From positions 1 through 20,745 of IMG/VR virus record IMGVR_UViG_3300046411_000983: DNA of 20,745 bases. One strand, written 5' to 3'. Below, piece after piece: positions 1,086 to 17,169 of this stretch; the stretch's first letter is position 1, and each line of letters opens with the position of its first letter. Source of the stretch: a virus. The position numbers and the translations under genes are program-made. Below the pieces are notes generated by a model, which was not told where the DNA came from, did no database searches, and worked only from the letters and a program-made list of their open reading frames with translations.

Positions 1086-4000
1086 CCTACAAACGTTTCT
1101 GTTTCAGCAAGTGTTGTAATAAAGAACGTTCCCGTTACTCTATCAAACTTAACATTCATGTGTGTAGTTCTTAAATTTGTATTACCTATGATTGCACTTG
1201 CTCTACCAGTCTTGCCGCCATCTGCTACTGCGCCGTTAAGCACTACTGTTGGTGCAGACACATAACCTGTTCCTGGATTGTCTATTTTAATCTCTGTAAT
1301 TTTTCCACCGCCAACATACGCTGTTGCCTTGGCTCCTGTTCCGCCACCGCCTACAAATTCTACTCCTGGTGCATTTTCATAACCACTACCTGCATCAAAA
1401 ACATCAACCTGTTTAATTTGGAAACTTGCATTGTCTACCCAATGTTTGCTTGGATAACTTGTAATGTTAGATGATGTTACTATTTCATCATTAACAACTC
1501 TAACTGTTTGTGGTACAATTCTTCCTGCTGTGTCGCTGTAGAATGGTGGTAAGTCAAAGTCAGTAACCATGTTTTCTGATTTCTCATCACCTTCGTATGT
1601 ACTTAGGTATTCTCTAATTTTAGATTTGTATGGTTTGACTTCTTTTACATACTCCTCATAACTTTCTAAGAAGTCATTATTAAATGTAATGTCTTTTCTT
1701 AGTTTACCAAGATTATGTTTTGCTTTGATGAATGAAGTTTTAAACATCCAGTCTACAAATTTTTGTTCTGATAAAATATAACGCATTTGTGCAAAGAATA
1801 ATTTGTTATATTCAATAGCAAGTTCGTCAACAAATATTTTATCTCTTAATGCTGTTAAGATAATACGCATTTCATCAATTGGTTGTATATCAAATGCACT
1901 GTCATCATAACCATATGAGTCATAACCAATTAAGTCTTCACTGTAATCATACAATGATTTTGATAATTGTATTGTTGCATTTTGTCTACCAATAGTTCTG
2001 TAATTTATTGTATAGTCTACATCTGCTTGATCGTCAATTTTTTGTAATAATAACCAACCGCCTGATCCTACATTGTTAATTTTAACAATACTGTTGAATG
2101 AATCCTCTAATGATTCTAACTCATACGTTTCATTAATTACAAAGTCTGCTTTTGTTAGTTCATTGTAACCTGTTGCATACCAATCAACATATGACCAATA
2201 AGGTTTTACGTCATATCTTTGACTCTTAATTCTATTCCAAGTTTGTTCGCCACCTACATATTCGTATAATGACCACTTGTTGGCGTAACTTGCATCTATT
2301 GTTGTAAGAACTGTAAACGGTCTAACTCTGATTGTATCTGTTTGTGCATAGTTACTACCACTCTTAACAACTGTTGCTGTTTGTATCTGTCCTACATTGT
2401 TCATTGTAAGTTCAATAACAGCACCTTCACCTGTGTTTGTTGTGATTTGTGTTGTTGGTACTGTTTTATAACCGTAACCCTGTTCAATAACATCTGCTCT
2501 TAGGATTTTACCGTCTTGAATAGTTAAATTAATAGTTGCTTGTTTTAATCTACCTACTGGTACAAAACTTAATTCGCTATCACTATCAATCTCTGTGTCA
2601 AATCTTCTTGATGCTAAAGTTGGAATAGCATCATTGCTTTGGAAATCACTTAGATCAAAGTCATCAATTAAGATATTTTCCTTAAGAACACTGTTTGTTC
2701 TTTCAACAAGTTGTTTTAATGCTTCAATTCTGTTTACAAAGATAGATTGTCTTGGATCATTTAAAATACCATACCTATCTCTTTCAGTTAATTGTCTATC
2801 TGGAACAGGTCTACCTTGGTTATCAAAGCCAATTAAACTGTCAAACCATTTTAATTCTAAATCTGTTTTAGGAAGACTTGTTGCTAACCCGTCTGTAATA
2901 ATTTTGTATTGATTATGTACATTTTTATCAGTTTCATTAATATTCCAATACGCAAACTTAAGAACTGTATCATCTCCTGTGATAGAACTTTGTAAGTTAT
3001 GTAAAGTCCACTCATTCTTATCAAGCATAGTTGCAAATTTTAGTCCTGCACCTGATGGATCTCTAATTAATTCTTGTACGTCTGCGGCACTTAAAGTTCT
3101 GCCTGGTGCATCTGGAGTAGTTTTCTTATTTCTTACCCAGTAGTAGTAGAAAGTTGTAAACTTCTGTGCTTCTTCATCATATACACGTCTTGTACTGTAT
3201 GCATTGTCACCGTATTTAGATTTACCACTAATACCTTGTGCTAAAGCAGTTTCTGTATCTGCTTCTTCGTCCCACTCACTTGGAAGTAATGTGCTTTCAA
3301 CCCATTCATAAACTTCAACTTCTGTTCCTGGGAACACTTCGTTCATTGTGTTACTTGTAGTAAAGATGTTTCCTGTATTGCTGTATGGATTTAAAAATCT
3401 TACAGCGTCAATATCCCACCATAACTTACCAACATTGTCAGTTGTGTTAAACATTGTTTCATCTTTTACAACTGTTGTATCAGTTGCTATATTATATGTA
3501 CACGGATCATAAGTTGTTTTGAATGATAGTTCAGTTTCAGCCGTTCCTGCAATTTTTCCTTGTGCAGGATCAATGTAGTCAATATATTCTGTAACTTGAT
3601 TTGTATTTTTATTGTATAAACTAATACCTTTGAATCTACTTAGGTCAACTAATGGTCTTGCAGATCTAATTTTTTCCCATAATTTAGTATTAGGAGTTGA
3701 TCTATAATCTAATAAAGTTCCTCTACTGTTGTTATCATCTCTCTTGTAAGAAGGTATACCAACATAAATGTGGTTACCATTAATAAACATTGTCTTACCA
3801 AAGTATAATGCTTTGCTATCTGCAAATTCTAACTTGTCTGCATACACATATCTGTTACCTAACAGTTCGTAAACAAAAACTTCACCAGTATCAATTAATG
3901 ATGTATTGAATAATGTAGTTCCATTATCAAATGCTGTTATGCCTCCATCAAATTCTGTAATACTTGTAAGGTCACCACCTGCTGAATGTACTGCAAGTCT

Positions 4001-7000
4001 ATCAGTTCCGTACTTAACAACAGTACCAAACTTCTCATTTGCAATTCCTTTAGGTCCAGTTAGGTGTTGTACCATTTCGAATGTGCCGTTAATGCTTTCG
4101 TAAATGAATACTGTACCTTGATTTACATATTGATTGCTATATTTAGGAGCACCTACTGCAACAAATCTACCATCATTGGAAACTGTTACAGAACTTCCAA
4201 AGCCAATGTCTGCCGCATAAGCATCAATTACTTGACTAAACAGGAAGTGTCCTAATACTTTTCTGTAAATTGCTAACTTCGGTGTATTAATGGAACTATC
4301 TATAGCATCACCATACTTAACAATAGTTGCTAATACTTCTCCATCACTGCTAATTCCGTATTCTGTACCAAACTCATATAAGTTGTTGTTTTGAATTGCA
4401 CTATCATCACCAATAATAAATCCTGTATCGTTTGGCAAGTAACCATTTAGATCAAGACCTTCTGTAACTACTGTCCAATTTGATTCGTTCCATGCACTTG
4501 CAATAATATTTGTTTGTGCTTGATAAATTAATCCAAGGTATTTTACATATTCGCCTTGTCTGTATGTTACAGTTTCACTAAAGTCGCCTTTGTAATCTAC
4601 ATCTTGTCCTAAAATCCAACCGTTAATTCTGTCATATTTTATAACATTGATTCTGCCTGGTTGATTAAACGTTCCGTTACCTTTGCTTAACAAGTATGCA
4701 GTATAAGTTCCGTCATTGTGTGTAACCATTTCAACTTTTGCACCTAAGTGTCTACTGCTTTGTGCATCAGGCATAATATAAATGTTATGCAAGTTGTAGA
4801 AGTTACTTGTATTTCTTTCGAAAATTGCGTATGCACCTTGTCTTGTAAATGCACTTGCAACACCGGCATTGTTTGCAGTAATATTGTAAACTCTTTGCCA
4901 ATCATTATTAGTATTACTTGGTGGATTTGCATCTCTTGCGATACCTGACTGTTCTACACTGTCATAAATCCAGTATTCAAATCCTTGTAATGTTCTTGTT
5001 GAACCTACTGTTAAGTTTGTTCCTCTATCTACAACAATAATCGGGCCTGCTGTATCTGATTCTAAATGTCTTGTGTTAATTGTACCAACAAGTCTTACAA
5101 CGCCTGCGCCTTGTGAACCACCGTTAATACTTAAACTTGAAATGTCGCTGTTCTGTGAACCAAACTTCCAAGTACCATTAACATTTTTAACCCATAGTCT
5201 TAAAGTATTAAACAGTTTTTCTACTCCTGCAACTTCTGCCGTTGCAAGTGTGTCGTTATCTTGTACTGTATCTCCAACAACAGGAATAAAAGGTTGACCA
5301 TAATTAGGATTGTAGTCTGGATCACTTGGTGTTGGTGAACCTCTATCATCAAATGCTGTAAGATTTACTTCAATCCAACCGTTCCAAATATCATTAATAG
5401 TATGTTCTGTTCTGTTTAGATAGTCGTGTGTTAGTTCAGGACTTATTACACCTGGATCTTGAATTAAATTATCAGCAGTTGCATATTCACTAAAGTAAAA
5501 ATTAAATGTATTTCCTACTACAAGATTACTTGTTAAAGTTGCTGGTGCTCTAAATACCCATTTGTCTGAAAGTACGTTACCACTATCACCTAAGAATGAT
5601 AAAGTTTCAATGTAACTTGTTATTGTAGGATTCTGGTCTGTTAAATTATCCTGGATTCTTAGTGCATTTTCATAATATTTTATACTACGTGATACGCCTG
5701 TTTTAATAATGTCTTGAATAACAAGATATGGTTTAGTTTCAATAGTAACTGTTGAAGTGAAACTTGCATTTGGTCCAGCAATTTGCCACCAACCACCTAA
5801 GTAATTCTCATCTTGTTGTACTGCTCTTTCAAATACACCAATCTCAATGTCACCAACAAATAATGTACCTGTTGTTTCAAACAATCCATTAGCATCTTTA
5901 ACATAAATTAAACTTCTGTTATCACCTGTAGTATGTACATAAGTAACTTCTGCCACTGCTGTTGCACTACTAATTGTTTCTCCTACACTTGGAATTGCTT
6001 TTGTATTATCAATTAAAAGTATATCATCAATTTTTTGTACAATAGCATGTTCACCGTCGAAGTATGCCTTAGTCATTAACGGGTCATTATTGAAAGGTGC
6101 TATACCACTTGGATATCTTGTGTTAATGTCATTCCATAATAACTGTAACTTGTCGCCTACTTCTGTTCCGGAGTACTGTGTTTTAGGTGCTCTGATCAAT
6201 ACATGGTCTGTAAGTTCTTCAGGGAAACTAAAATTACCTCTTAATATAAATTGTAAGTTACTATATGCATTATTTTCTCTTGTACTAACAAGTGCCTGTA
6301 CATGAGAGTCAAATGTTTGATATTCTAAATCTGGATCTTGTGGCTCAACTGTAGTTTTTGCTTTCCAGTATTGATTAGTGTATTTTACAATATCTTCTTG
6401 TGTGTAAGTTGAAGCACTATTAAAGTCTCCTTTATAAAAAGACTTAACATTCGAAGCATACGGTATACCAACAATTAACCATTTGCCATCTGTTGATATA
6501 TTTGTGCTTTGACCAAAACTATTTTCGCCACTACTCATATACCCATCTGGCATATCAAGTATTTGTGATTGTACAGCCTTAAGGTTTTCTGATGCTCTAA
6601 AGTAAATGTCTACTCTACCGTTTTCAGTTTCACCTGGTACACCAACTGGAATAATGCTGTTAGTTGCATTTGCACTAATACTTGTTCCAAAGTTATTAGT
6701 ATCAGTTCCTAATATACCTTCAATGCTGTTACTAAAGGTTTGCTGTTTTAAATCATATTTGTTTCTGTTTTCTACAACTGCCCATCTATTGTTTTCATCA
6801 TGATCAACCCATACTCTTTCGTTGTTGCTAACATTGTCTCTTGTAATTTTTGTATTAACACCATTAAGGTCGTCAACCCTTACACTAATTAATTGTGTAA
6901 TGAATGCTGAAATCTCTGGTAAGTCTTTTTGTTCTCCAGACGTTGTAGCATAGATTGTATTAAGACTTGTTCTTTGTACTTTATAAAACCTGTCAGTATC

Positions 7001-10000
7001 ACCTGTACCAAGTATACTAATAATATCATCTTTAACAAACGCAGGTGCTTTACCTGTTGTAATCTCTATCATGCCCGAACTATCCGAGTTTACAATAGCA
7101 CTTACTTTGAATGGTGTTTCTGTTTGACGTAAAACGTCCCATGTTTGCGACTTTTTAGCGACCCAAATATATTTTCCTACATCAATTGTATTAGGATCAA
7201 GTGCAAGTATATCATCATAATTTGTAACTTTGAAATCAATGTCTGCTTCTGCAACATATCCTGCTGTCTTAATATATGACTCATCTTCCGGAATATATTT
7301 TGTTGGGAAAGGAGCATGATTATAATCTGCTGGTTTGCTGTAAGCATCTGATGGTACATATCTGTAAACAAGATCTGTTGCTAACGGATCAATGTTTTGT
7401 ACCAATTGGAATGGTTGAGGACTTAATCTAAATTTACCTTCGTCAAGTTTATACTCAATTTCTTCAAAGCCTCCATTGGCTCCATACTGTCCAACCTTAA
7501 ATGCCCATTCCTCAAAAAACTCTAAACTTGAATTTTCTGTATTAGATAATGCATCAAATAATTTCTTTAATGAATTAGTTGTACCTTTATCTTGAATATA
7601 TCCTTGATAAAATTTATACTGTGAAACATCATCATTAATAATATTTTCAATATACTTACGTTTCTGATAACCTGTTAAGTGTTGTGCCATACGTTGCTGT
7701 TCACTGTCAAAGTTATCTGTGTCTAAATCATAAAAGTCTGCAAACTGATTTGCTTTGTAATCTAAGTTTGGTACAAGTTCTGATTTAGGTTTTGCAGGTA
7801 GTTTATACCAATCGTCTTCAAAGAAGTTTGTGCTACCTTGAATTTTATATTTTGCACTATAATAAAAAGTTTTATATTGTACAACATCAGCAATATCATA
7901 ATCTTTATTTTCTTGCCAATCTTTTACTGTAACACCATCGTAAGTAAATCCTGGAATATGTAAACCACCGTTCCAGTCTGTAGTTCTGTAACCTAATATC
8001 TTAATTCTTGCTTGTCTATATCCTGGTGCCGGATTGTAAATTGTATCATTGAATACTGTTTTGTTATCAAGTAAACAAACATGCTCTTTTTGTACAAGCG
8101 GTAATTTTAAAAAGTATATTCCGTCAGCAGTATTTTTAAGTTGTAAGCCAAAACTGTTTTGACTACTACGCAACGTATTTGTAAATTCTTCTTTAAGTTT
8201 TTGACCGTCTGCTTTTAATAATGTGTAATCATAAAAGTTATCAAAGATATTGTCAACTACTGCATATTCTCTTCTAAAGTTTAAATTAATAGCACTTGGA
8301 GAAAGTGTTAATAATGCACCTTCACTCCAGTTTTGTGTAGTCCAGAATAAAAACTCTCTTGCACTTAATTCCCAGTTCTCAATAGTTTCAAGTTCTCTGT
8401 TAAATGCACTAAAGTCAAATCCTTGTTTAATTAAGTATTGCTCATAGCCTAACAAAAAGTCAATAACTTCTTGTGTAGTTCTTAACATTGTACCGTAGTT
8501 TAGTTTAGAAGTAGTTGATTCAAACTCTCTTCTAAGGATACCTTCTCTACCACCTTCAATTGGTAACTCTGCAAGTTTAATAAAGTTGTCATCTGTGATA
8601 GTTGCAAATATTCCTGTAGTCTTTACACGATAAAAACTTGTGCCAGTACGTATAATTTGTCCTTCAACATAACGTTCACCTGGTGTCCACTCTAAGAAGT
8701 TTTCACTAACACCACCTACATTAACAACTGGGTCAGCGGCACGTTCAATATGTTGGAAATAATCAAAGTAAGGTTTGCTTTTGTCATAACCTTTAACAAC
8801 AAATCCTGCTGGACGTTTTTCAACAATTACACCACTGTAAGAAACTGTGTCAATTGGTGAACTTGTGTTTAAGAATATTTTATAGTTTTCATCTGGAATA
8901 AAAACATTACCCTTGTTATTAGGTGTTCTTGAATCAAGTAATAATCTAAACTTATCTTTTGTAGTAAATCCGCCAACCTTAAATCCAAGTTGTACTTCAA
9001 GACCTTTAACACTTTCACTATATGCTTTGTTTAGTTTTGTTACGTCTGCATTAATATAATTGAAAATATAGTTAACAAGACCTGCTGTAGTTATACGTGT
9101 AGTGTCTTCTACTGTATTAGGGAATACAATATTCTTTGGTTCTAAACGTTTGTTGTTTTCTGAATAAACAATTCCACCTGCTGGATTACGTATAATTCTT
9201 GCTCTATCAAATCCTACACCCATTACCTTAGCAGGTTGATGAATTAAATATGCAAGTAATAATGCAAAAGGCCATTCCGAACTTCTACGCCATGCTGTTT
9301 CAACTGGTGACTCATCACCAAACACAAATGAGTTATCTGTTTCAGGTACAATAAGTCCTTGTGCATATCCGCTGTCATATGGACTTATTAAATTACCCTG
9401 TGTGTTAACAGGAATGTATTTTGTTAAATCTTTTCTTTTATAATTTGTTTTATATCTAATAGGTTTGTTAGGCTCACGCACTAAACCTTTTTCAAGGTCT
9501 CCCCAAAGAATTAAATTTTCTGCTGTGTATGGTGCTGGACCATAAACTGTTTCCCACCAAGTTGGTTGATCAATGTAACCTAAAACCTTCCATGGCGTTG
9601 TATGCGGAGTATCTGTGCCTAAATATCTATTATAAATTCCTCTCCAGAAACCTGGTAAAGGTAATCCATCTGGATCAGCAAGTTTAGAATAGTTCCAAGT
9701 AAATGGATCTGCTCTGTCATAGAATGAAATATCTGTGTAATCAGGATCACCTGCAATGCTTAACCATTCAACAAAATCAGTAATAGTAACGTTCTCTGAA
9801 TCTTCTCTTGTAAATCCTGTATCTCTTGAAGGGTGTCCAAGGAAAGCATCAATATCAAATATTGTAGAATCGTAACTTACTTTAACATTATTGTAGATTC
9901 TTTTTTCAATCTCTAAAATAATATCATCTCGATAATCATTGTATGCTTTAACAACACTGCCGTCATGTCCTTTGATAAGCACACGTGGTTCTTGATATGT

Positions 10001-13000
10001 ATTGTCAGTAAATTTTATTGGCTTGTGTAAAGGATACAAACCTAACTTTGTTGGAGTAGGTGGAATGTACGAAGCATCAGTTGATTCGTATTCGTAAATT
10101 GTAACTGTATCATCTACAGCAAGAACGTAATCGTTAGCAATCTGTACAAAGCCTTCGCTTGTAAATGTATAATCTTGTCCGTGTAATAATTGTATACCGT
10201 TGTGATATACATAAACTGCATTAGCACTAATAGTTGATAATGAAAACGGAGTTGTTAAACTGTAAAACTTATTGCCAACATCTGTAACAGTAAATTCACG
10301 CTTGTTATTAGCACCTGAACCAATCATGTCTGTCCAGTAAAATGCTGTTTGTTTTGATTTTTCAGACTGCCATTTTTCAATTACTTTATCTGCTAAGAAT
10401 GGTGCTGTACCGTCAACACCTAAATTATCTGCAATGTCAACAACTGCTCTTTTAAATTTTGCATATTCTTTTCTTGCAAATCTTAATGCTTTTACAATGT
10501 TGTATTCTTTATTTGTAATGTGATATGATGCTAAAGGTATTGCACCAGAATGTTGTACAAACTTTGTACCAAGTTTTGCAAGTCCACCTAAGTTACGTAA
10601 ATTACTTGGTCCTGGAAAACTTCCTGTAAATCCTGTAGCATTGGAAATAATTGATTGCACATGATCTGTTACTTCACCATATGTAAAGTCTGCAATGTTT
10701 TCATTCAATGGATTGTTTTGTAAGTTAATTGGAAACTCGTATTTTCCATTTGCATTTTTATCTGCTTCACTTGTACAATGTAAAATTAAAATGTCGTCAT
10801 TTTTTAAATCTGTTGTAAATCTTACGTATGCAATACCATTAATTCTATTCAATGTCCATGCTGTTTGTCTTGTGTTGTTTACAAAAACTTTTACGTCTAA
10901 TTGATTTAAGTCACCGCTTCTGTCATACACATCAACTGCAAAGTCGTTCTTTTGTCCAGATACAATATACTGTCTAATAACTTTTTGTTTACTGTCAGTA
11001 TCTACTTTCTCCCAACCACTTACATTTGTATAAGTGTTAAGTCCTGTATACTTTCTTAAAGTTGATGAATCAGTTTTTACTGTGTAGTCTGTTTGGTTAA
11101 GTTGGTAATTAAATGAATCAGTTAACAAGTCAAAGTTAAAAACAATGTCTCCACTGTTTTCAATGTTTCTATAACTTAAAGGAAAACCTAATACTGTATC
11201 ATTAGCGCCAGTACCTTGTTTGTAACTAAACAAATCAGTACCCGTAAATGTATTTGATGTATAAGTGTCAAACCCTACATCAGTAATATCATAAAGATTA
11301 AATTTAGGTTTTTGATTTGCTTTTGTTTTATCTTGTGCTTTGATCCACTTGGATCCATTGTACCAGTAAATCTTACCCGAGTTTACTGTACCACCTGTAA
11401 CTAATACTGTTTGATCTGTTAATGGCTCTGTATCTGTTTCTTCTTGTAATGCAACTTGTCTTACACCGTTGTGTGTAATAAATTTTACTTTGTAAATTCT
11501 ACCATTGACTCTTATGTCTGGATCTGCTGTAAACAATACACGCAGTCCTTCAGTAAGTTCAACACCATCAACATTATAACCTGTGCTACCTTCAATGGTA
11601 CTAAAAACATCAATAGTAAAATCATCAATTAGATCAACATTTGCTTTTTTCTCACTACCAAAGTTATATAAACGTAACCCTGGATTAAATTCAATAATAG
11701 GTCTTGAAGCACGTTGTAATTGATCTATTTCAACCTCTGTGCCATTTGCCAACGCTGTTCTTTCAATAGTGTCTTTGTGGAACCAACGATTGTGTCTACT
11801 CCATTGGTTACCGTCAATACTTGCTCTATTGATTGTAATATAGTCTTGTTCTTTAGGATAATTTAGTGCTTGTCCAAATGGTAACTTATCAAAGTTTTCT
11901 GTATCAAATGGTACAAATATATTTGAACTGTATGCTCCTGTGATCTCAAGATCGGATTTGTTGATTAATTGTATTGATTCGCCAACACCTTCAACATACC
12001 AATATCCTTCTGAATATTTTGCTGGTGTAACATCACCTAAGAATTCTACTAACATACCATTGGATAAGTCAGTGTCAGTTCTTGTTGTGTAAGTTACTTT
12101 TTGTAGAATTTCTTTTTCTACATCAATTTCTGTATTTTCTAATATATTATAAAGTGTAACTAAACCTGATGTGTTTACGTCATTTTGACTGATATAAAAT
12201 AATGTATCTGGTGCATCAAGTGGCACTGTAAATTTAAGTGTGCCTTTTTCTACATACACTGTTGCTGATTCAACACCGTCGGTATATATTGTAGAGATAT
12301 TATCTCCGTCCTTGAATCCTGTAATACCGCCTTCAACAGGTTCTACTATGTAGTCACCTGTGTCATAGCCATCGGTGTCATATAATTCTGCTTCAAACTT
12401 ACCAGATGCCAACACACCTTCAACTGTCTCAGTTATAATCGCCTGTCCTGGAGTAAATGCTCTATTGGTTGCAAAAGCAATAGGGTGTCCAGGAGTATCA
12501 ATCTCGAATATGTAAGTTTGACCTTTGTAAAGTTTTAATGTAGGGTTTTGTGTTAAACCTGTTGGGGTAAATTTATACGCTACGTTGTCATCATTTTCCT
12601 CCAAGGATACTTTAAATGTAGAAACTATTTCTTTGTTTTGACCAAAGATAGGTAATACTTGTGGTCCTGCTGGTAGCCAATAGTATTCTCTAAAGTTTAC
12701 AAACTTGTCCCAATCAATATGTGGTTGCCACGCATAATATTCTTGTGCGTTTATTTTACTATGATCAGGAGTTTTATTACCAAACGCCCTTAGTTGGTTA
12801 ATGTAATCATTATAGTCTTTGTAGAAGTCAACATTGTCTGCGTCGTCTTTTAAAACAACTGCTGGTTCTACTTGGTAGTCTTCTCTTTGTTTTGTAACAT
12901 CTGCAACATAGTTGTCATCTGCTGTTAACGCCTTTGCATCTCTACGACCATAATATGAATTAAGTTTTTCAACTTCTCCTGGATTTGTTAACTGATCCAG

Positions 13001-13126
13001 AGTACTTGTTAAAAACTTTTTATTTGCAGGTGTTCTGAAATATTTAGGTAAGTGACTTAGACTTGTTCTATTTTCGTCTTCACCTGGTCCAATTGGAAGA
13101 TCATTCTGGTCGTTATCATACGCCAT
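1..13126 (-). CDS. Giant modular baseplate/tail structural protein, 3'-partial (at least 4375 aa)
   Basis: One frame runs from ATG at 13126 to the left edge with no stop found in my reading; the C-terminus lies outside the window. The start is well supported: a perfect GGAGG Shine-Dalgarno sits 6 nt upstream, and the ATG overlaps the gp6 stop (TAATG). The N-terminus reads MAYDNDQNDLPIGPG. In order I see a cupredoxin-like motif (about residues 190-220), CBM5/12-like modules (about 1475, 1727, 2224 and 2828), FG-GAP propeller blades (about 2140-3142), a duplicated VGxT/VKxxNG module (about 2376 and 2612), GxGY repeats (about 3535-3602 and 3899-3980) and beta-rich 'VxVNG...Y.VD' units up to the edge. 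I spotted only about four cysteines and no signal peptide or membrane segment, as expected for a virion protein. It follows gp6, where T4 has wedge gene 7 (about 1030 aa), but I see no specific gp7 signature. Inferred role: a peripheral baseplate or fibre-network protein that contacts host surface glycans. Frame and phage-structural nature are secure; the precise role is not. Confidence 0.88.
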   Translation of the reverse strand, partial: MAYDNDQNDLPIGPGEDENRTSLSHLPKYFRTPANKKFLTSTLDQLTNPGEVEKLNSYYGRRDAKALTADDNYVADVTKQREDYQVEPAVVLKDDADNVDFYKDYNDYINQLRAFGNKTPDHSKINAQEYYAWQPHIDWDKFVNFREYYWLPAGPQVLPIFGQNKEIVSTFKVSLEENDDNVAYKFTPTGLTQNPTLKLYKGQTYIFEIDTPGHPIAFATNRAFTPGQAIITETVEGVLASGKFEAELYDTDGYDTGDYIVEPVEGGITGFKDGDNISTIYTDGVESATVYVEKGTLKFTVPLDAPDTLFYISQNDVNTSGLVTLYNILENTEIDVEKEILQKVTYTTRTDTDLSNGMLVEFLGDVTPAKYSEGYWYVEGVGESIQLINKSDLEITGAYSSNIFVPFDTENFDKLPFGQALNYPKEQDYITINRASIDGNQWSRHNRWFHKDTIERTALANGTEVEIDQLQRASRPIIEFNPGLRLYNFGSEKKANVDLIDDFTIDVFSTIEGSTGYNVDGVELTEGLRVLFTADPDIRVNGRIYKVKFITHNGVRQVALQEETDTEPLTDQTVLVTGGTVNSGKIYWYNGSKWIKAQDKTKANQKPKFNLYDITDVGFDTYTSNTFTGTDLFSYKQGTGANDTVLGFPLSYRNIENSGDIVFNFDLLTDSFNYQLNQTDYTVKTDSSTLRKYTGLNTYTNVSGWEKVDTDSKQKVIRQYIVSGQKNDFAVDVYDRSGDLNQLDVKVFVNNTRQTAWTLNRINGIAYVRFTTDLKNDDILILHCTSEADKNANGKYEFPINLQNNPLNENIADFTYGEVTDHVQSIISNATGFTGSFPGPSNLRNLGGLAKLGTKFVQHSGAIPLASYHITNKEYNIVKALRFARKEYAKFKRAVVDIADNLGVDGTAPFLADKVIEKWQSEKSKQTAFYWTDMIGSGANNKREFTVTDVGNKFYSLTTPFSLSTISANAVYVYHNGIQLLHGQDYTFTSEGFVQIANDYVLAVDDTVTIYEYESTDASYIPPTPTKLGLYPLHKPIKFTDNTYQEPRVLIKGHDGSVVKAYNDYRDDIILEIEKRIYNNVKVSYDSTIFDIDAFLGHPSRDTGFTREDSENVTITDFVEWLSIAGDPDYTDISFYDRADPFTWNYSKLADPDGLPLPGFWRGIYNRYLGTDTPHTTPWKVLGYIDQPTWWETVYGPAPYTAENLILWGDLEKGLVREPNKPIRYKTNYKRKDLTKYIPVNTQGNLISPYDSGYAQGLIVPETDNSFVFGDESPVETAWRRSSEWPFALLLAYLIHQPAKVMGVGFDRARIIRNPAGGIVYSENNKRLEPKNIVFPNTVEDTTRITTAGLVNYIFNYINADVTKLNKAYSESVKGLEVQLGFKVGGFTTKDKFRLLLDSRTPNNKGNVFIPDENYKIFLNTSSPIDTVSYSGVIVEKRPAGFVVKGYDKSKPYFDYFQHIERAADPVVNVGGVSENFLEWTPGERYVEGQIIRTGTSFYRVKTTGIFATITDDNFIKLAELPIEGGREGILRREFESTTSKLNYGTMLRTTQEVIDFLLGYEQYLIKQGFDFSAFNRELETIENWELSAREFLFWTTQNWSEGALLTLSPSAINLNFRREYAVVDNIFDNFYDYTLLKADGQKLKEEFTNTLRSSQNSFGLQLKNTADGIYFLKLPLVQKEHVCLLDNKTVFNDTIYNPAPGYRQARIKILGYRTTDWNGGLHIPGFTYDGVTVKDWQENKDYDIADVVQYKTFYYSAKYKIQGSTNFFEDDWYKLPAKPKSELVPNLDYKANQFADFYDLDTDNFDSEQQRMAQHLTGYQKRKYIENIINDDVSQYKFYQGYIQDKGTTNSLKKLFDALSNTENSSLEFFEEWAFKVGQYGANGGFEEIEYKLDEGKFRLSPQPFQLVQNIDPLATDLVYRYVPSDAYSKPADYNHAPFPTKYIPEDESYIKTAGYVAEADIDFKVTNYDDILALDPNTIDVGKYIWVAKKSQTWDVLRQTETPFKVSAIVNSDSSGMIEITTGKAPAFVKDDIISILGTGDTDRFYKVQRTSLNTIYATTSGEQKDLPEISAFITQLISVRVDDLNGVNTKITRDNVSNNERVWVDHDENNRWAVVENRNKYDLKQQTFSNSIEGILGTDTNNFGTSISANATNSIIPVGVPGETENGRVDIYFRASENLKAVQSQILDMPDGYMSSGENSFGQSTNISTDGKWLIVGIPYASNVKSFYKGDFNSASTYTQEDIVKYTNQYWKAKTTVEPQDPDLEYQTFDSHVQALVSTRENNAYSNLQFILRGNFSFPEELTDHVLIRAPKTQYSGTEVGDKLQLLWNDINTRYPSGIAPFNNDPLMTKAYFDGEHAIVQKIDDILLIDNTKAIPSVGETISSATAVAEVTYVHTTGDNRSLIYVKDANGLFETTGTLFVGDIEIGVFERAVQQDENYLGGWWQIAGPNASFTSTVTIETKPYLVIQDIIKTGVSRSIKYYENALRIQDNLTDQNPTITSYIETLSFLGDSGNVLSDKWVFRAPATLTSNLVVGNTFNFYFSEYATADNLIQDPGVISPELTHDYLNRTEHTINDIWNGWIEVNLTAFDDRGSPTPSDPDYNPNYGQPFIPVVGDTVQDNDTLATAEVAGVEKLFNTLRLWVKNVNGTWKFGSQNSDISSLSINGGSQGAGVVRLVGTINTRHLESDTAGPIIVVDRGTNLTVGSTRTLQGFEYWIYDSVEQSGIARDANPPSNTNNDWQRVYNITANNAGVASAFTRQGAYAIFERNTSNFYNLHNIYIMPDAQSSRHLGAKVEMVTHNDGTYTAYLLSKGNGTFNQPGRINVIKYDRINGWILGQDVDYKGDFSETVTYRQGEYVKYLGLIYQAQTNIIASAWNESNWTVVTEGLDLNGYLPNDTGFIIGDDSAIQNNNLYEFGTEYGISSDGEVLATIVKYGDAIDSSINTPKLAIYRKVLGHFLFSQVIDAYAADIGFGSSVTVSNDGRFVAVGAPKYSNQYVNQGTVFIYESINGTFEMVQHLTGPKGIANEKFGTVVKYGTDRLAVHSAGGDLTSITEFDGGITAFDNGTTLFNTSLIDTGEVFVYELLGNRYVYADKLEFADSKALYFGKTMFINGNHIYVGIPSYKRDDNNSRGTLLDYRSTPNTKLWEKIRSARPLVDLSRFKGISLYNKNTNQVTEYIDYIDPAQGKIAGTAETELSFKTTYDPCTYNIATDTTVVKDETMFNTTDNVGKLWWDIDAVRFLNPYSNTGNIFTTSNTMNEVFPGTEVEVYEWVESTLLPSEWDEEADTETALAQGISGKSKYGDNAYSTRRVYDEEAQKFTTFYYYWVRNKKTTPDAPGRTLSAADVQELIRDPSGAGLKFATMLDKNEWTLHNLQSSITGDDTVLKFAYWNINETDKNVHNQYKIITDGLATSLPKTDLELKWFDSLIGFDNQGRPVPDRQLTERDRYGILNDPRQSIFVNRIEALKQLVERTNSVLKENILIDDFDLSDFQSNDAIPTLASRRFDTEIDSDSELSFVPVGRLKQATINLTIQDGKILRADVIEQGYGYKTVPTTQITTNTGEGAVIELTMNNVGQIQTATVVKSGSNYAQTDTIRVRPFTVLTTIDASYANKWSLYEYVGGEQTWNRIKSQRYDVKPYWSYVDWYATGYNELTKADFVINETYELESLEDSFNSIVKINNVGSGGWLLLQKIDDQADVDYTINYRTIGRQNATIQLSKSLYDYSEDLIGYDSYGYDDSAFDIQPIDEMRIILTALRDKIFVDELAIEYNKLFFAQMRYILSEQKFVDWMFKTSFIKAKHNLGKLRKDITFNNDFLESYEEYVKEVKPYKSKIREYLSTYEGDEKSENMVTDFDLPPFYSDTAGRIVPQTVRVVNDEIVTSSNITSYPSKHWVDNASFQIKQVDVFDAGSGYENAPGVEFVGGGGTGAKATAYVGGGKITEIKIDNPGTGYVSAPTVVLNGAVADGGKTGRASAIIGNTNLRTTHMNVKFDRVTGTFFITTLAETETFVGTGGKYNFKLKWPMDIKSDQVTITVAGSEVLQSGYTVSNIDDSVGRTHGRKIGQVTFTNPPANNSAISVSYRKDISMLTAQDRINLFYNPTTGMLANDLGQLLDGIDYGGVQVKSFDFGGGSGWSAEGWFTGAYDSYDNTYEDEVIRLDGSTISVTLSKPLENGVEYNVYLNGTRIDDPNFPGSPTNPNARCTTLTGDGTTTTIFLDNDGLDINGANSPSNGDVLIFRKNTSDGSFVPDPRAYDTLVTGGDLAYSSATGINPEDINIDGDGFVTQLTSKGPEEQVPGQVLDTLDMKIYDRVGSGASIIESTSYIGDGGKTVFKYNGQPQSKDALIVKINNIIQLQSAYTVDYKNKTITMTAP
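1185..1430 (-). repeat. GxGY glycine-rich beta repeat, region 2
   Basis: About residues 3899-3980 contain VDVFDAGSGYENAPGVEFVG, a GGTGAKATAYV strand, ITEIKIDNPGTGYVSAPTVV and a closing GKTGRASAII. The two rounds are clearer than those of region 1 and show the full 'DaGsGY..aP.v.f.GGgGtGA.A.a.V..G.It.I.i...GtGY..aP.v' pattern. Confidence 0.7.
2320..2525 (-). repeat. GxGY glycine-rich beta repeat, region 1
   Basis: About residues 3535-3602 contain ADVIEQGYGYKTVPTTQI, a GEGAVIEL strand, then TATVVKSGSNYAQTDTIRV. This is two rounds of 'V...G.GY...P...I..G.GA.....'. The pattern is common in phage fibre and baseplate proteins and is probably a structural beta stack. Confidence 0.6.
4450..4645 (-). 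other. CBM5/12-like module 4, inserted between propeller blades 3 and 4
   Basis: About residues 2828-2892 contain DYKGDFSETVTYRQGEYVKY, then LGLIYQAQTN and a closing WNESNWTVV. This is the best match of the four to 'YKG.w....Y..Gd.V.Y.G..Y.A......W....W'. Its aromatic positions are all present. It lies between two propeller blades. Confidence 0.6.
5150..5290 (-). repeat. Duplicated VGxT/VKxxNG module, copy 2
   Basis: From about residue 2612 the segment reads IPVVGDTVQDNDTLATAEV, then LRLWVKNVNGTWKFG. Shared landmarks with copy 1 are IP.VG.T, AEV..V and (Y/W)VK..NG followed by an aromatic. Both copies lie in the long insertion between propeller blades 2 and 3. Confidence 0.6.
5848..5998 (-). 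repeat. Duplicated VGxT/VKxxNG module, copy 1
   Basis: From about residue 2376 of the giant protein the segment reads IPSVGETISSATAVAEV, then LIYVKDANGLFE. It matches copy 2 at 5150-5290 (IPVVGDTV...TAEVAGV...LWVKNVNGTW) over about 45 residues. The repeat is seen at protein level; the two copies have diverged at DNA level. Confidence 0.6.
6325..6455 (-). other. CBM5/12-like module 3, inserted after propeller blade 2
   Basis: About residues 2224-2267 contain FYKGDFNSASTYTQEDIVKY, then TNQYWKAK. This is the 'yKGdws....Y...D.V.Y...yw.A' pattern. It begins directly after the second FG-GAP blade motif (VGIPYASN), so it looks like an insertion in a propeller loop rather than a separate domain in the chain. 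Confidence 0.55.
7785..7945 (-). other. CBM5/12-like module 2 in giant protein
   Basis: About residues 1727-1780 contain KDWQENKDYDIADVVQYKTF, then YYSAKYKI and a closing DDWYKLP. The spacing W...Y...D.V.Y...YY.A...W.. fits the small three-stranded aromatic module that binds polysaccharide in CBM5/12. Sugar binding is inferred from the pattern only. Confidence 0.5.
8565..8705 (-). other. CBM5/12-like module 1 in giant protein
   Basis: About residues 1475-1519 read WTPGERYVEGQIIRTGTSFY and continue with RVKTTG. This matches the 'W..g..Y..Gd.V.y.g..Y.a' spacing of chitin-binding-type modules (CBM5/12) that recur in phage tail proteins. The fit is the weakest of the four copies, because the position after the central Val/Ile is Arg and the terminal Trp is missing. 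Confidence 0.4.
12455..12590 (-). other. Cupredoxin-like motif in giant protein N-terminal region
   Basis: About residues 180-224 of the giant protein contain TPTGLTQNPTLKLYKGQTY followed by an FEID..GHPIAF segment. The pattern 'NPTL.L.RG.TY.F.....GHPF.' is common in marine phage and bacterial structural proteins and resembles a cupredoxin-type beta-sandwich. The metal ligands of true cupredoxins are not evident beyond the single His of GHP, so a structural rather than redox role is likely. Confidence 0.45.
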
Positions 13127-16100
13127 TAGTAACCTCCGCTATTGCCTGAACCTGAGTTACCTGAAGAACTTGAACTCGATGAACTCGAACTTGTTGATGT
13201 TGAAGTTGTAGTTGTTGTTGAAACTGTATTTGCACTTGATGTAATCCCTGCGTTTTCTGTTGATGCTGTAGTTACTACAGTACCTGATGTTTTTAATCTT
13301 GATGCTGTAATGCTGTCAATAATTTCAACATCATCTACTGTTGCACCACTAATAAAAATTTCATCATTCTCAGTTGAAATTTCATATAAACTTCCAAATG
13401 CTTTTTCTGTTTGGTTCGGAACCAATACAAGTGTTGTAATATCCGGCGCCAAAGAATTAATAATATATGTAGACAGTTCTGTAAAACTAAACTTATCTCC
13501 AAAATCCCAAAACTCTAAACTAAAGAATTCATTAATTGCTTGGATAATTCTTAACTTAATATCATTATCATTACTAATTACTTCTGGATTCTTAACAACT
13601 TTAAATGTTGCTTGTAGATCTGGGTCTGCTTTATTACCAAATAAAATTTTGTAATTAACTGGGTGATAAATTACTTCATCACTAATTGATTTAATCTTAT
13701 TAATTTCTGCACCAAAGTTCTGGAATAATTCGTCTGAACTTGGTGGTAAAGGTTTATTAGGTATTGTATCTGCCAAGTATTGTCTAAATGATTTGTCATA
13801 CGTTTTAGTTAACAAGTATGTGTCAACAATGTTTGAACTACTTGGATCTAATCTGTTATTCTCATCTGCACTGTGTACATATTGGAACACAAGTTTATCT
13901 CTACCTTGATATGCTTTGTAACCTGTTTTTAATGTTAAGTTTGCATTTGCTTTATTATATACTTTAAACACATCTGCATCTGTAAAGTAAAATAATGTAC
14001 CATCGTCATATTGTGATAATGCACCTGTTGATGTTTCTGATAAAAACGTTCTAATATTTTCTACGCCGGCATCTACATAATCATAGTTTGTAGATTGGTT
14101 GTTTGAAATTCTTTCTTTTAAGAAAATATATTTTGTTAAAGGATTTGTATCCTGTGCAACAAACGCATCAAACAAGTCTGGATTATCAACAACACCATCG
14201 CCATCGCTGTCAAAGAAACCTACTTCTACTTTTTTACTATTAACATATCCTTCGTCATCTCTAAACTCTTTAGTAACTTGCCAAGGATAATCAACAGTTT
14301 CAGGTAAACTTGAATCTGGTTTCTTATTGATTGACATTATGTTAATTTTATCTCTAACAATTTGTCCTGTTCTACTATCGTAAATTTTATCTGTTTCATC
14401 AAAGTAAAACTTAACTTCTTGGTTACTTTCAAAAATGTATCTAACACCTCTGTAAGTAATAGTATACTTTTCACCGTCTGTTTCAAATAACATTAACCAA
14501 CTTGAATCTAAGTTCTGTCCTGATACGTCACCTGTCTTACCCATATTAAATGGATTACCAATACTTAAATTGTTATTAAGAATTACACGCCATTCTCTAT
14601 CTACAGTACTGTAACGTAAACCAAATGTTTTATAAGCAAAAATTTGATCAATCATTTGCGTTGTAACATCTGTTGTTAAGTTTGTTGCAAACTTAGGTTT
14701 AATTTCATCTAATAATGCACCTGTTGGAACAACATCATTAAAGATAATAGGACCTTGTCCGTCCTCATAATTTTCAGTGCCTTTTTCATTTACTCTAATA
14801 ACTTTAGTCCAAAGATATTTTGTTGCTGATGGATGATCAGCATCACCGTCCATTAACGCATGACTGTTATCTTTCATAAAATGTTTGCCTGGAGGTGCAA
14901 CAAATTTAACAATAGCACCTGGTTCTAAATATTTTAGTGTGCTACCAGTAAATGCACCTACTGTTAATTTAATATCTAATGTGTCCGCAATATAACCGCT
15001 GGAGTTATTAGTTTGTTTTGCAACCTGTGTCCAGTCTGCTTGTAAATCTGCTGTTGATATTTTAGGAAACTGATTTAAGAAAAAGTTTTTAACTACACTG
15101 TCTGAAAGTAACGGTGTAACTATATTTTGAATCTTGCCTTCTACATCTGTTTTTGTAGTAAAACTAAAACTAACTTTTTTATCAAATACATCTTTATAGA
15201 TAGCGCCATCGTTACCAAAGATGTTTGTGCTTGAATATTTTCCTGTTGAATCAATCAAGTCAAAGTATCTTGAAATACCTGAACTTGTTCTATTAATACT
15301 TTTTACTTTAACTACTTCTTGGCTAACTGATCTTGGTGCAACATTATAGTCCTCACCAGTAATCATTCTGTTTTGTGTATAATATGTACTTGGAGCATTT
15401 TCTTTAATGCTCTTATTAGTTTCAGGACCACTTGCATTATCAACTGTGTATTTTAGTGAAGCAACAAATGTAAATGTTTCTGCTGTTCCTGCTCTACTTG
15501 TATATGGTACACTAATAGTTACGTTTGTTAAATCTTCAGGATTGATTGTAAACTTTGTACCAAGTCCTTTTCTAAAGTAACATCTAAAGTTTCCTTTAGG
15601 TAAATCACCAAATGTTCCGTCTGCAAATAATAAACTAATTCTGTCATCAATACGTGATTGTACAGCATACAAACTTCTGTTTGATTTGCTAACACTATTG
15701 TAGATAACATTGTTACCTTCAACTGCATCAACCTTAGTCCATAACTGTTGTTCGTTTCCGTTGCTGTCTAATCTGTAAAGCCAAACATCTGAGTTGTTAA
15801 TATTTGTTGTGTCAATAGCAACTGCTTGATTAGTTGTAGGATTGTCAATGCTAAAATTACCTGTGTCCATTACACCTTGTCTAAAGTGTACAAAGTAACC
15901 TGAGTTTGAACTACCTGCACCTTTACCATCTTCTCTGTATAAAAATCCTAAACTATTTCCTGGTAACGGATCTTCTTCAAAAATCTTGTCAGCATCAATA
16001 GTTGCACTTGTTATTTCAAATACAATATTTTTTTCTCCTACGTTTTTATTAAAACTGTAGATAGGTAAGTTTGAGTTTGATGCATTGAAACGATATTGCT

Positions 16101-16653
16101 CAGTTGTAATACCTGCAATAGTTTCTTTCTTTACCGGCTTACCTACAATACTGGCTTCTGGTAAAGCCGCATTTAAAATTTTTCTAAACTGTTCTGCCCA
16201 ATCAGGATTTGAAGGATCATTCCATAAAATAGTTTGTCCTGATAAGTTAACACCGTTAGTGTCATTAATTTGTTCTGTAGTTTGCACACTTTCAAATTTT
16301 AATAATCCGTTTGCCGCTTGATTACGCTTTGGATTATAAGAAAGTAAACGTGCTAAACGTAATACGCTTTCTCTACGTTCTGCTAATTCAAGGAAGTTTT
16401 CACGTGCATTTAGGTCAACACGGAATGCCATGTTTTGTCCAAGATATGCAATAAGATCAATTAGTGCAAGATACTCTGAACTTTCAATGTAATCGTTAAA
16501 GTCTTCAGGATAGTTCTCACGCAAATATGAGATCATAGTTCTACGTAAACTATCAAAATCATACGATTTGAAGTCCGCAGTTTTAAATGTTTGATATACT
16601 CGCTTCCAATCTTCAGCAAGTAATAATCTATTTTGTCTATCCGTTGTTGACAT
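13126..16653 (-). CDS. gp6: Baseplate wedge protein gp6, enlarged (1175 aa)
   Basis: gp6 forms the dimeric ring core of the T4-type baseplate wedge, joining wedges to one another and to gp25/gp53. The N-terminal 120 residues are typical: DWKRVYQTFKTADFKSYDF, then SLRRTMISYLRENYPEDFND and a LIAYLGQNMAFR..LNARE.FL..A..R.SVLRLAR..SY segment. The C-terminal part (about residues 1005-1120) contains HPVNYKILFG, the INEFFSLEFWDFGDKFSFTE segment and a wedge-type strand region. At 1175 aa it is nearly twice T4 gp6 (about 660 aa); the extra mass is in the middle, including a DSDGDGVVDNPD acidic loop at residues 815-826. The last roughly 50 residues are Ser/Thr/Gly-rich with a run of ten serines encoded by mixed TCN and AGY codons. 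The start is supported by AAGAGG 7 nt upstream. The stop overlaps the start of the giant gene. Family assignment is firm; the function of the central expansion is unknown. Confidence 0.93.
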   Translation of the reverse strand: MSTTDRQNRLLLAEDWKRVYQTFKTADFKSYDFDSLRRTMISYLRENYPEDFNDYIESSEYLALIDLIAYLGQNMAFRVDLNARENFLELAERRESVLRLARLLSYNPKRNQAANGLLKFESVQTTEQINDTNGVNLSGQTILWNDPSNPDWAEQFRKILNAALPEASIVGKPVKKETIAGITTEQYRFNASNSNLPIYSFNKNVGEKNIVFEITSATIDADKIFEEDPLPGNSLGFLYREDGKGAGSSNSGYFVHFRQGVMDTGNFSIDNPTTNQAVAIDTTNINNSDVWLYRLDSNGNEQQLWTKVDAVEGNNVIYNSVSKSNRSLYAVQSRIDDRISLLFADGTFGDLPKGNFRCYFRKGLGTKFTINPEDLTNVTISVPYTSRAGTAETFTFVASLKYTVDNASGPETNKSIKENAPSTYYTQNRMITGEDYNVAPRSVSQEVVKVKSINRTSSGISRYFDLIDSTGKYSSTNIFGNDGAIYKDVFDKKVSFSFTTKTDVEGKIQNIVTPLLSDSVVKNFFLNQFPKISTADLQADWTQVAKQTNNSSGYIADTLDIKLTVGAFTGSTLKYLEPGAIVKFVAPPGKHFMKDNSHALMDGDADHPSATKYLWTKVIRVNEKGTENYEDGQGPIIFNDVVPTGALLDEIKPKFATNLTTDVTTQMIDQIFAYKTFGLRYSTVDREWRVILNNNLSIGNPFNMGKTGDVSGQNLDSSWLMLFETDGEKYTITYRGVRYIFESNQEVKFYFDETDKIYDSRTGQIVRDKINIMSINKKPDSSLPETVDYPWQVTKEFRDDEGYVNSKKVEVGFFDSDGDGVVDNPDLFDAFVAQDTNPLTKYIFLKERISNNQSTNYDYVDAGVENIRTFLSETSTGALSQYDDGTLFYFTDADVFKVYNKANANLTLKTGYKAYQGRDKLVFQYVHSADENNRLDPSSSNIVDTYLLTKTYDKSFRQYLADTIPNKPLPPSSDELFQNFGAEINKIKSISDEVIYHPVNYKILFGNKADPDLQATFKVVKNPEVISNDNDIKLRIIQAINEFFSLEFWDFGDKFSFTELSTYIINSLAPDITTLVLVPNQTEKAFGSLYEISTENDEIFISGATVDDVEIIDSITASRLKTSGTVVTTASTENAGITSSANTVSTTTTTSTSTSSSSSSSSSSGNSGSGNSGGY
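13132..13137 (-). promoter_or_regulatory. Strong Shine-Dalgarno for the giant gene (GGAGGT)
   Basis: The minus strand reads GGAGGTTACTAATG. The perfect GGAGG is 6 nt from the ATG and is itself coding sequence, since it specifies the Gly-Gly before the last Tyr of gp6. Together with the TAATG overlap this suggests translational coupling, and it fixes the start of the giant protein. Confidence 0.85.
14178..14211 (-). other. Acidic DxDxDG calcium-loop-like motif in gp6
   Basis: Residues 815-826 of gp6 read DSDGDGVVDNPD. Asp at loop positions 1, 3, 5 and 9 with Gly at 6 matches EF-hand/dockerin/thrombospondin-3-type calcium loops. No helical EF-hand flanks are obvious, so a single stabilising calcium site is the most that can be proposed. 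Confidence 0.45.
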
Positions 16654-16709: not shown

Positions 16710-17156
16710 TTACACGCCAAAGCCTGAGTTCTGATCGAATTCAAACTTCAGTTTCTCAGATATGTTGTATGGCAAGTACGTAAGTTCGCACTCAATTTGA
16801 ATACCACTTTCATACTGGTCAACAACTATTGCGGATGCAGTTACTCTTGGATCACCGTTTACAATCTCTGTTACATTGTTTATAATTGCTTCTTTTAATG
16901 AATCAGTCATAGGCTCAAACAAAACGTCCCAAATGATAGTCCCAAACTCGGGATTTTCAAGTTTTTCGCCTTGTCTAATATGAAAGTGATTCAGTAAATC
17001 TTGTTTAATCAAGCCAATGTCATACAATGCATAAGAAGTATTGTCAGAATTGACTGTGCTAAGACCTTTGTATGCTCTGCTTTTTACAGGAGGTCTTTCT
17101 TTGACGTTTGATGATACTTTAACATTTCTTACTGTATTTTTTTCTAAACTGCTCAT
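16710..17156 (-). CDS. gp25: Baseplate wedge subunit gp25 (148 aa)
   Basis: gp25 (GPW_gp25 family) is the small wedge protein that caps the inner baseplate and offers the first docking strand for sheath polymerisation. T4 gp25 is 132 aa; this protein has about 30 extra N-terminal residues rich in Lys/Arg/Val. The core is typical: LYDIGLIKQDLLNHFHIRQG, NPEFGTIIWDVLFEP, then EIVNGDPRVTASAIVV, where GDPR replaces the EPR core motif of the family, and a closing amphipathic beta region. The protein ends in SGFGV. The start has no good Shine-Dalgarno: the nearest purine run (AAAGG) is 15 nt away. A perfect TATAAATA box ends 5 nt before the ATG. The gene lies 8 bp after gp5 and 56 bp before gp6. Identification is firm. 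Confidence 0.93.
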   Translation of the reverse strand: MSSLEKNTVRNVKVSSNVKERPPVKSRAYKGLSTVNSDNTSYALYDIGLIKQDLLNHFHIRQGEKLENPEFGTIIWDVLFEPMTDSLKEAIINNVTEIVNGDPRVTASAIVVDQYESGIQIECELTYLPYNISEKLKFEFDQNSGFGV

Positions 17157-17161
17157 ATCAA

Positions 17162-17169
17162 TATTTATA
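17162..17169 (-). promoter_or_regulatory. Perfect T4-type late promoter (TATAAATA) abutting gp25
   Basis: TATAAATA matches the T4 late consensus exactly. It overlaps the gp5 stop codon (TAA at 17167-17165) and is followed by TTGAT and then the gp25 ATG. With T4 spacing, where the last A is at about -6, the first transcribed base would be the A of the gp25 start codon. The box implies that the phage encodes a gp55-like late sigma factor. Confidence 0.65.

Follow-up and report, generated by a model that had tools for sequence, protein, structure and literature searches.

A predicted seven-bladed FG-GAP-type ring nested in a giant baseplate wedge protein of uncultured large phages

The heads of integrin alpha subunits are seven-bladed propellers of the FG-GAP type, and those of the alphaI class hold an inserted ligand-binding domain between blades 2 and 3. 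We analyzed a 20,745-base virus record, IMGVR_UViG_3300046411_000983 (the window), which carries five minus-strand genes: a virion protein gene, gp5-like, gp25-like and gp6-like genes, and a giant open reading frame (ORF), P0001. P0001 encodes at least 4375 amino acids (aa), adjoins the gp6-like gene and has the gp25-like gene nearby. The best overall explanation, to which we assign a probability of about 0.6, is that P0001 is a baseplate wedge giant with a nested closed propeller that acts as a structural or docking platform.

Among phage proteins, the giants of PHROG 10938 from jumbo phages (MIJ3/PA5oct, Atu_ph07, Munch and GAP32) have in common with the window the wedge core before and after the propeller, and they are labelled only "virion structural protein". 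The MIJ3 and Atu_ph07 giants also follow a gene annotated as baseplate wedge (gp6-like). In T4 the gp7 gene follows the gp6 gene, just as the giant's gene follows a gp6-like gene; the giant is roughly four to five times longer than T4 gp7, and we know of no propeller in the T4 protein. Propellers are found in other contractile systems. According to the available part of PMC5259590, the large contractile-tailed phage CBB has Kelch beta-propeller proteins, one of which (CBB_552) was found in the virion; these come from separate Kelch-type genes, whereas in the window the domain is nested in the wedge protein. The available part of PMC12923769 describes propeller lectins in the fibres of extracellular contractile injection systems.

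FG-GAP propellers, giant wedge proteins and tail modules resembling carbohydrate-binding modules (CBMs) are each already known. An earlier interpretation made from the DNA alone (the sequence-only reading) had called this architecture one it did not know as described, and we likewise found no description, in Creative Commons (CC)-licensed full text in PubMed Central (PMC), of a ring nested in a baseplate wedge with a blade opened by a module that is itself opened. The accessible parts of PMC11821841, PMC6892783 and PMC6851490 contain no description of such a nested ring.

A predicted closed ring of seven blades

Seven units with F/L-G starts begin at P0001 residues 2146, 2204, 2794, 2919, 2976, 3033 and 3109 and reach to about 3154, a span of about 1000 residues. 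They are listed here by window coordinates, with P0001 residues in brackets.

6542..6700, minus strand: blade 1 (2143-2195); blade profiles and AlphaFold2 strands
6437..6529, minus strand: blade 2, first two strands (2200-2230); profiles and the insertion-free relatives L068 and L114
4760..4849, minus strand: blade 2, last two strands (2760-2789); joined-profile match and strands E665-672 and E678-685 of the AlphaFold2 model
4598..4759, minus strand: blade 3 (2790-2843); 83.6 against blade 5, AlphaFold2 model and VIA
4214..4384, minus strand: blade 4 (2915-2971); blade profiles
4040..4216, minus strand: blade 5 (2971-3029), the most typical FG-GAP blade; Pfam FG-GAP_2 at 2973-3009, below cut-off, and profiles
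3812..4039, minus strand: blade 6 (3030-3105), with an extra hairpin, FDNGTTLFNT; blade profiles
3665..3814, minus strand: blade 7 (3105-3154), joined directly to the downstream core; profile E 0.09 and VIA range to 3150

Comparison of blade and control profiles with hhalign indicates that the seven repeats exceed chance. Probabilities rose above 90 in 8 of 21 blade-blade pairs and 1 of 36 control-control pairs, and none of 63 blade-control pairs exceeded 50; control segments overlapping blades 2 and 3 (c7 and c8) were excluded from the blade-control comparison. Pfam FG-GAP_2 (PF14312, gathering score 23 bits) reached 12.9 bits with the whole ORF and 19.9 bits with the region, both below cut-off. 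The same family was matched in all 23 aligned relatives at E<=0.1 (best 1.1e-14) and stood above its cut-off in seven of eight insertion-free relatives, at up to 66.7 bits.

We predicted the structure of P0001 residues 2100-3180 with AlphaFold2 from 23 sequences and searched the model with Foldseek and VIA-align. The model (predicted local distance difference test, pLDDT, 74.5; predicted template modelling score, pTM, 0.60) contains seven four-stranded blades in one closed ring. The top PDB match in Foldseek was the integrin alpha6 head (E 4.4e-9), with DDB1 and other propellers close behind. VIA likewise recovered the seven-bladed FG-GAP propeller fold of integrin alpha: integrin alphaM (7usm_A) aligned over 353 residues at Z 31.6 and a root-mean-square deviation of 3.1, covering model positions 23-1051 (P0001 2122-3150). 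A whole seven-blade WD40 ring (4h5j_A) aligned at Z 28.9 over 326 of 343 residues. Because the number of aligned residues is about that of one ring, the bulk of the insertions cannot be part of the match. Together, these results indicate that the seven FG-GAP-type blades would form one closed ring.

Integrin alpha heads (alphaM, alphaL and alphaX, then alpha5 and alphaV; 7usm, 5e6r, 3k71 and 3vi3) were matched at Z 31.6-28.4. The alphaM/L/X rows (Z 31.6-29.4) lie above WD40 (28.9), the best of them by 2.7 Z units over the best WD40 row, and identity between the phage ring and integrin heads in aligned residues is 15-17%. Unlike integrin alpha, the phage ring lacks the DxDxDG motif and a thigh or calf context. 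This calcium motif was found in 0 of 511 blade segments from 73 sequences. Looser patterns matched 3 and 14 segments, and another matched 39 of 511, in which the 20 among the matches listed are all D-x-S turns. Thus the sequence-only reading was sound in seeing seven F/L-G blade motifs over about 1000 residues, in proposing that they close into one ring with the insertions outside it, and in likening the propeller to that of integrin alpha.

Domains nested within blade 2 and after blade 3

Alignment with insertion-free relatives places the largest insertion within blade 2, after the second of its strands and before the third: strands 2760-2789 complete the blade begun by strands 2200-2230, with about 530 residues separating the two halves. 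The spacing of some 590 residues noted earlier therefore stands (2204 to 2794), but its location between blades 2 and 3 does not. When compared with blade 5, the true join gave a probability of 99.2 and a score of 87.7, against 62.2 for the first half alone and 62-77 for eight arbitrary joins. The true join was also top-scoring with blades 1 and 6, but not with blade 4, where one of the arbitrary joins outscored it (40.7 versus 32.7). The insertion point in alphaI integrins is close to this one, but the phage insertion lies inside blade 2.

The long interval between the halves of blade 2, together with the pTM of the whole model, could also be read as two independent folds, with a partial propeller at each end, an unrelated domain in the middle and no common ring. 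This is very improbable, given that the alignments to whole seven-blade rings run from position 23 to 1051 of the model, and that relatives have the identical row of blades without the insertion. A seven-bladed ring nested in the wedge core and opened inside blade 2 is, by comparison, highly probable.

The inserted domains are as follows.

6335..6436, minus strand: CBM5/12-like module 1, first part (2231-2264); an uninterrupted copy stands here in L078, L083, L103, L104, L115 and L119
5852..6208, minus strand: insertion domain copy A (2307-2425); hhalign against copy B 97.7, and AlphaFold2
5123..5566, minus strand: insertion domain copy B (2521-2668); hhalign against copy A, and AlphaFold2
4856..4912, minus strand: CBM5/12-like module 1, last part (2739-2757, DW motif); aligned to the closing part of the unsplit module of L078, L103 and others
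4445..4597, minus strand: CBM5/12-like module 2 (2844-2894), between blades 3 and 4; Pfam CBM_5_12, and PDB profile matches 8fqc and 9rkv

Module 1, which the sequence-only reading had overlooked, is split in the window by about 475 residues that hold a domain present twice. In the six relatives with the uninterrupted copy, a short CBM5/12-like module ending in the DW strand stands alone at the blade 2 break. The internal duplication was uncovered by a search that a control pair scoring 93.4 had prompted; copies A and B matched each other with an hhalign probability of 97.7 over 118 columns, and no other stretch of the 4375 residues exceeded 30. Two relatives carry further domains. L042 (within 10001-14452) has about 400 additional residues inside the already nested insertion, and in L083 (8015-10063) blades 1 and 2 are separated by a further domain that matches Pfam E1_FCCH at 33.4 bits (cut-off 29.5), marking another domain-accepting loop.

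Residues 2222-2775 (554 residues), modelled alone by AlphaFold2 from 55 sequences, gave a confident fold (pLDDT 91.1, pTM 0.83). Foldseek returned no PDB match at E<=0.001 for this model. Galectin-fold and laminin-LG rows appeared at E >=0.012 with probabilities of at most 0.08; one eIF2-gamma domain reached a probability of 0.99, though with E 0.027. Sixteen matches to viral structures had E<=0.001, all with TM values under 0.2 (LamG-named rows, at most 0.14), and we took them as uninformative. The VIA rows were tied at Z 7.0-5.3, in a range below 8 that may reflect merely a common arrangement, with T4 baseplate chains on copy A and eIF2-gamma and EF-Tu barrels on copy B. The best, though tied, matches of copy A were the T4 chains 5hx2_A (Z 7.0) and 5iv5_BJ (Z 6.8), which we infer to be gp7 from their length and a Gp7b row. 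The listed structure matches of the insertion include no row for an I domain (vWA fold), and an unlisted fold is still possible.

The wedge core, its relatives and neighboring genes

The propeller interrupts a conserved core. P0001 matched PHROG 10938 with 1085 bits in five stretches, and its gene is located after the gp6-like gene, as expected of this family. The match picks up again downstream of the propeller.

6767..13126, minus strand: upstream part (P0001 1-2120), mostly conserved; PHROG 10938, and tblastn of 1-2099 matches 60 phage records
2..3664, minus strand: downstream part (P0001 3155-4375), ending at the contig end; PHROG 10938 resumes

The upstream core is common to jumbo-phage giants without a detected blade. 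The blade search gave no hit in the MIJ3 or Atu_ph07 giants, the two examined, and in MIJ3 the cores are joined by 330 residues (446 by another measure) versus 1251 in the window. Members without blade hits that have long spacers, such as Atu_ph07, might conceal diverged rings; MIJ3 has little room for one. Core profiles found no convincing sequence match among PDB chains. A match to PHROG 460, "head closure" (P0001 3898-4001, window 1124-1435), was not taken as indicating function because it falls on a short repeat of the C-terminal part. This GGGGTGA-type repeat also matches several other structural PHROGs, which shows how labels of this sort can mislead. The category given for PHROG 10938 itself is "head and packaging", though its genes sit among baseplate genes.

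When residues 3151-3490 and their homologues were used as queries, matches were confirmed in at least 581, at least 593 and at least 583 of 599 listed stretches. Each scan kept the best 80 of at least 581-593 confirmed stretches, so counts among the giants are not frequencies in nature. The 259 giants collected, many of them near-identical, comprise 117 with the insertion, 102 with blades but without the insertion, 16 with no blade hit, one partial and 23 lacking one core. The sequence-only reading had proposed comparing related phages, and the alignments and 127 non-redundant giants do differ in this respect: 55 have the insertion, 60 have blades only, some of them as bare rings, and 12 have no blade hit. 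Bare rings were read by eye in L068 and L114. Between stop codons, the frame is 4,954 codons long in L003 (100% identity over 1081 matched residues) and L004 (94%). Among complete relatives, L013, which has the insertion, is 4,970 aa long, and L127, which lacks it, is 4,694 aa. By reading, the ORFs after the giant are of three alike kinds in L013 and in L127, which has a bare ring: a 204-aa protein and two long ones that look like tail-fibre proteins.

A blade profile built from insertion-bearing members only and applied at a loose threshold gave 7 matches in the window and 6 in L103. All 12 tested relatives with short core distance (of 29 such) had 5-8 matches, exactly seven in five of them, for example L136. 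The six members without detected blades that were tested had 0-2 weak matches (E 0.09 or worse). Since blade profiles cross-match and gave negative values, we replaced blade-to-blade distance with core-to-core length as the measure of spacer, a value that depends on where the core match ends, as with the two figures for MIJ3. Core-to-core spacing is at most 740 residues in 29 of the 60 blades-only giants and longer, up to 1392, in the other 31; other kinds of spacer must therefore exist.

In a core tree of 73 rows, from which L061 and L086 were left out for their short core, three changes, the fewest possible, account for the four architectures. The insertion rows form one clade with support of 89, below the starred level. 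In the 127-row tree they again form one clade (54 rows plus L077, support 97) beside a CBM-only group and then the bare rings, and the 12 rows without blade hits are all on one side. L077 had been labelled "compact" through a spurious core hit and is really an insertion member; L177 was assigned a gap that is too short. Both trees were midpoint-rooted, and the 127-row tree carries a long-branch warning (L044 with L232). On the window's side of the tree, this pattern fits stepwise nesting, losses being possible. The computed series runs from a bare ring, through a ring with small modules, to one with the large insertion; the order in which the domains were gained is something we infer from it.

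Clean presence or absence at a single point might suggest that the insertion is not a functional domain but a selfish or foreign element of recent arrival. We find this scarcely credible: the insertion marks one clade and 55 of 127 non-redundant giants, its ratio of nonsynonymous to synonymous substitution (dN/dS) is well below 1, it has a confident predicted fold, and no intein or nuclease family is among the Pfam rows.

The remaining genes of the window are the following.

18695-20722, minus strand: virion protein; no Pfam match
17165..18694, minus strand: gp5-like baseplate hub gene; PHROG 13211, with Phage_base_V below cut-off
16710..17156, minus strand: gp25-like baseplate wedge gene; Pfam GPW_gp25 27.4 bits, cut-off 27.2
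13126..16653, minus strand: gp6-like baseplate wedge gene; PHROG 10646 and 219, and tblastn matches 213 phage records
2-13126, minus strand: giant ORF P0001; open at the contig end after 4375 codons

These wedge and hub neighbors, with the PHROG 10938 family, uphold the baseplate context that had been proposed for the propeller. PHROG labels the gp5-like protein "baseplate hub subunit and tail lysozyme"; its best match is limited to residues 248-431, and no lysozyme family is among its Pfam rows. The C-terminal tail of the gp6-like protein (13129-13285) is rich in serine, threonine and glycine. The G+C fraction is 0.41 and 0.45 in two 1-kb windows at 17000-19000, which cover the gp5-like gene plus the near ends of the flanking genes, and 0.32-0.36 in the others.

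Megablast of the window returned no cultured-phage relatives, and neither the window propeller nor the L068 ring had a cultured-phage match in tblastn. With the L103 ring, tblastn found one stretch, in another gene of phage Phosso; the L136 ring matched one separate FG-GAP gene, which belongs to a small uncultured phage. In Sinorhizobium phage Phosso (L125:1859-8312), the FG-GAP-like stretch belongs to a separate, very long hypothetical protein far from the baseplate wedge gene. In a small freshwater Caudovirales genome (L261:11884-13305), a gene annotated FG-GAP repeat stands by itself, four genes past the tape measure gene. A link to cyanophages through psbA was dropped, as 0 of 10 records contained it.

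Possible roles of the ring

In a standard propeller, the second-to-third-strand loop of blade 2 and the link between blades 3 and 4 both lie on the upper face, which in integrins is the ligand-binding side and, in the alphaI class, bears the I domain. The giant wedge protein, encoded after the gp6-like gene, is predicted to hold the closed seven-bladed propeller as one nested domain, and our preferred mechanism is that the ring would form a rigid peripheral platform on the wedge. In one clade, the ring's loops bear a CBM5/12-like domain after blade 3 and another inside blade 2, the latter enclosing the block of about 475 residues with the duplicated domain. Loops of one face would carry these modules outward, where they may dock neighboring baseplate or fibre subunits, and the ring would thereby act as an interaction scaffold in the fashion of an integrin head. 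We hold the docking function of ring and insertions tentatively, at slightly less than even odds.

Alternatively, the ring could be a host-recognition head, through which the wedge would bear a receptor- or glycan-binding module besides the fibres, with the insertions setting specificity. Integrin heads do bind ligand via the face that would carry the insertions, and CBM5/12-like modules are present. Pfam CBM_5_12 matched between blades 3 and 4 (residues 2849-2883) at 19.7 bits with the whole ORF and 25.1 bits with the region, both below the cut-off of 26.2, in agreement with the CBM-like module reported there from sequence. The family is above cut-off in L103, L104, L115 and L119 and below it in L078 and L083. 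Its best stretch is at the module 1 site in L104 (28.6 bits, above), L083 (25.4, below) and L078 (17.6, below), and at the module 2 site in L103, L115 and L119.

The module 2 profile best matched modules of phage tail spikes and fibres (8fqc, E 5.4e-14), and chitin deacetylases and chitinases more weakly. With CBM5/12 (ChtBD3-like; phage tail spike gp124, 8fqc, and chitinases) the phage module has in common the framework Y-x-x-G-D/E-x-V-x-Y ... Y-x-A ... W. Unlike CBM5/12, none of 31 module 2 sequences has an aromatic residue at any of three tested positions after Y-x-A, presumably the positions where binding modules carry tryptophans, and module 1 is split. The bulk insertion also has no confident carbohydrate-binding match, its galectin- and LamG-type rows being weak. 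The earlier description of the insertions as sugar-binding is therefore weak.

Divergence bears on the same question. Mean identity over 351 pairs of 27 sequences was 42.7% for the ring and 42.4% for the insertion, so the insertion is no more divergent between relatives than the blades. Core segments had 54.5-60.4% (58.4% for 1-1000 and 59.7% for 1001-1900), and segment 1901-2120, just ahead of the ring, was also low at 44.3%. In six pairs among four close sequences, dN/dS was 0.11-0.14 in blades, 0.14-0.30 in the bulk insertion and 0.20-0.36 in the CBM-like modules, compared with 0.09-0.15 in segments 1-1900 and 3155-3490 and up to 0.20 in 3491-4300. The highest values thus belong to the insertion and CBM-like modules, whose presence varies between clades, as a host-recognition head would predict. 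With ring and insertion equally divergent and dN/dS at most 0.36 in all segments, there is no sign of a hypervariable part. We consider a host-recognition head unlikely, though a serious contender, and, with modest confidence, prefer the structural or docking platform to a sugar-binding head.

Several observations weigh against the preferred explanation. The pTM of the ring model is moderate, integrins were in the AlphaFold2 training data, and blade 7 is the weakest by sequence (hhalign probability at most 16.3). Closure rests on the range, the number of residues aligned and the whole-ring match, since the aligned residues are unlisted. Other integrin rows, including alpha5 and alphaV (Z 29.3-28.4), tie with WD40 rows; with many integrin rows so tied, descent from an integrin-type ring is not demonstrated. 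Growth did not follow one simple series, since beyond the insertion clade the length classes "compact" and "mid" change repeatedly, 11 times each. Judged by dN/dS, the insertion and CBM-like modules evolve faster than blades and core, and this would fit host contact as well. Finally, docking is conjectural, and the insertions are assigned to one face from general propeller topology rather than coordinates.

A bolder idea is that a phage lineage arrived independently at the alphaI-integrin design, with the blade 2 loop carrying an outward, doubled ligand-binding module on a split CBM-like stalk and the wedge serving as a host-recognition or fibre-triggering head. Such a design, which we regard as doubtful, would involve three levels of domain-within-domain insertion, and four in L042.

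The preferred reading, a nested platform on the wedge, puts an integrin-head-like propeller in the baseplate wedge of large uncultured phages; its family was returned as hundreds of stretches. Given relatives with a bare wheel, with small add-ons or with no detectable wheel, the protein looks to have grown by nesting domains. The series from no detected ring through bare ring, small modules and large duplicated insertion to the extra residues of L042 lets the growth of a giant protein by nesting be followed, and the nested ring gives testable guesses on the outward-pointing face of the baseplate.

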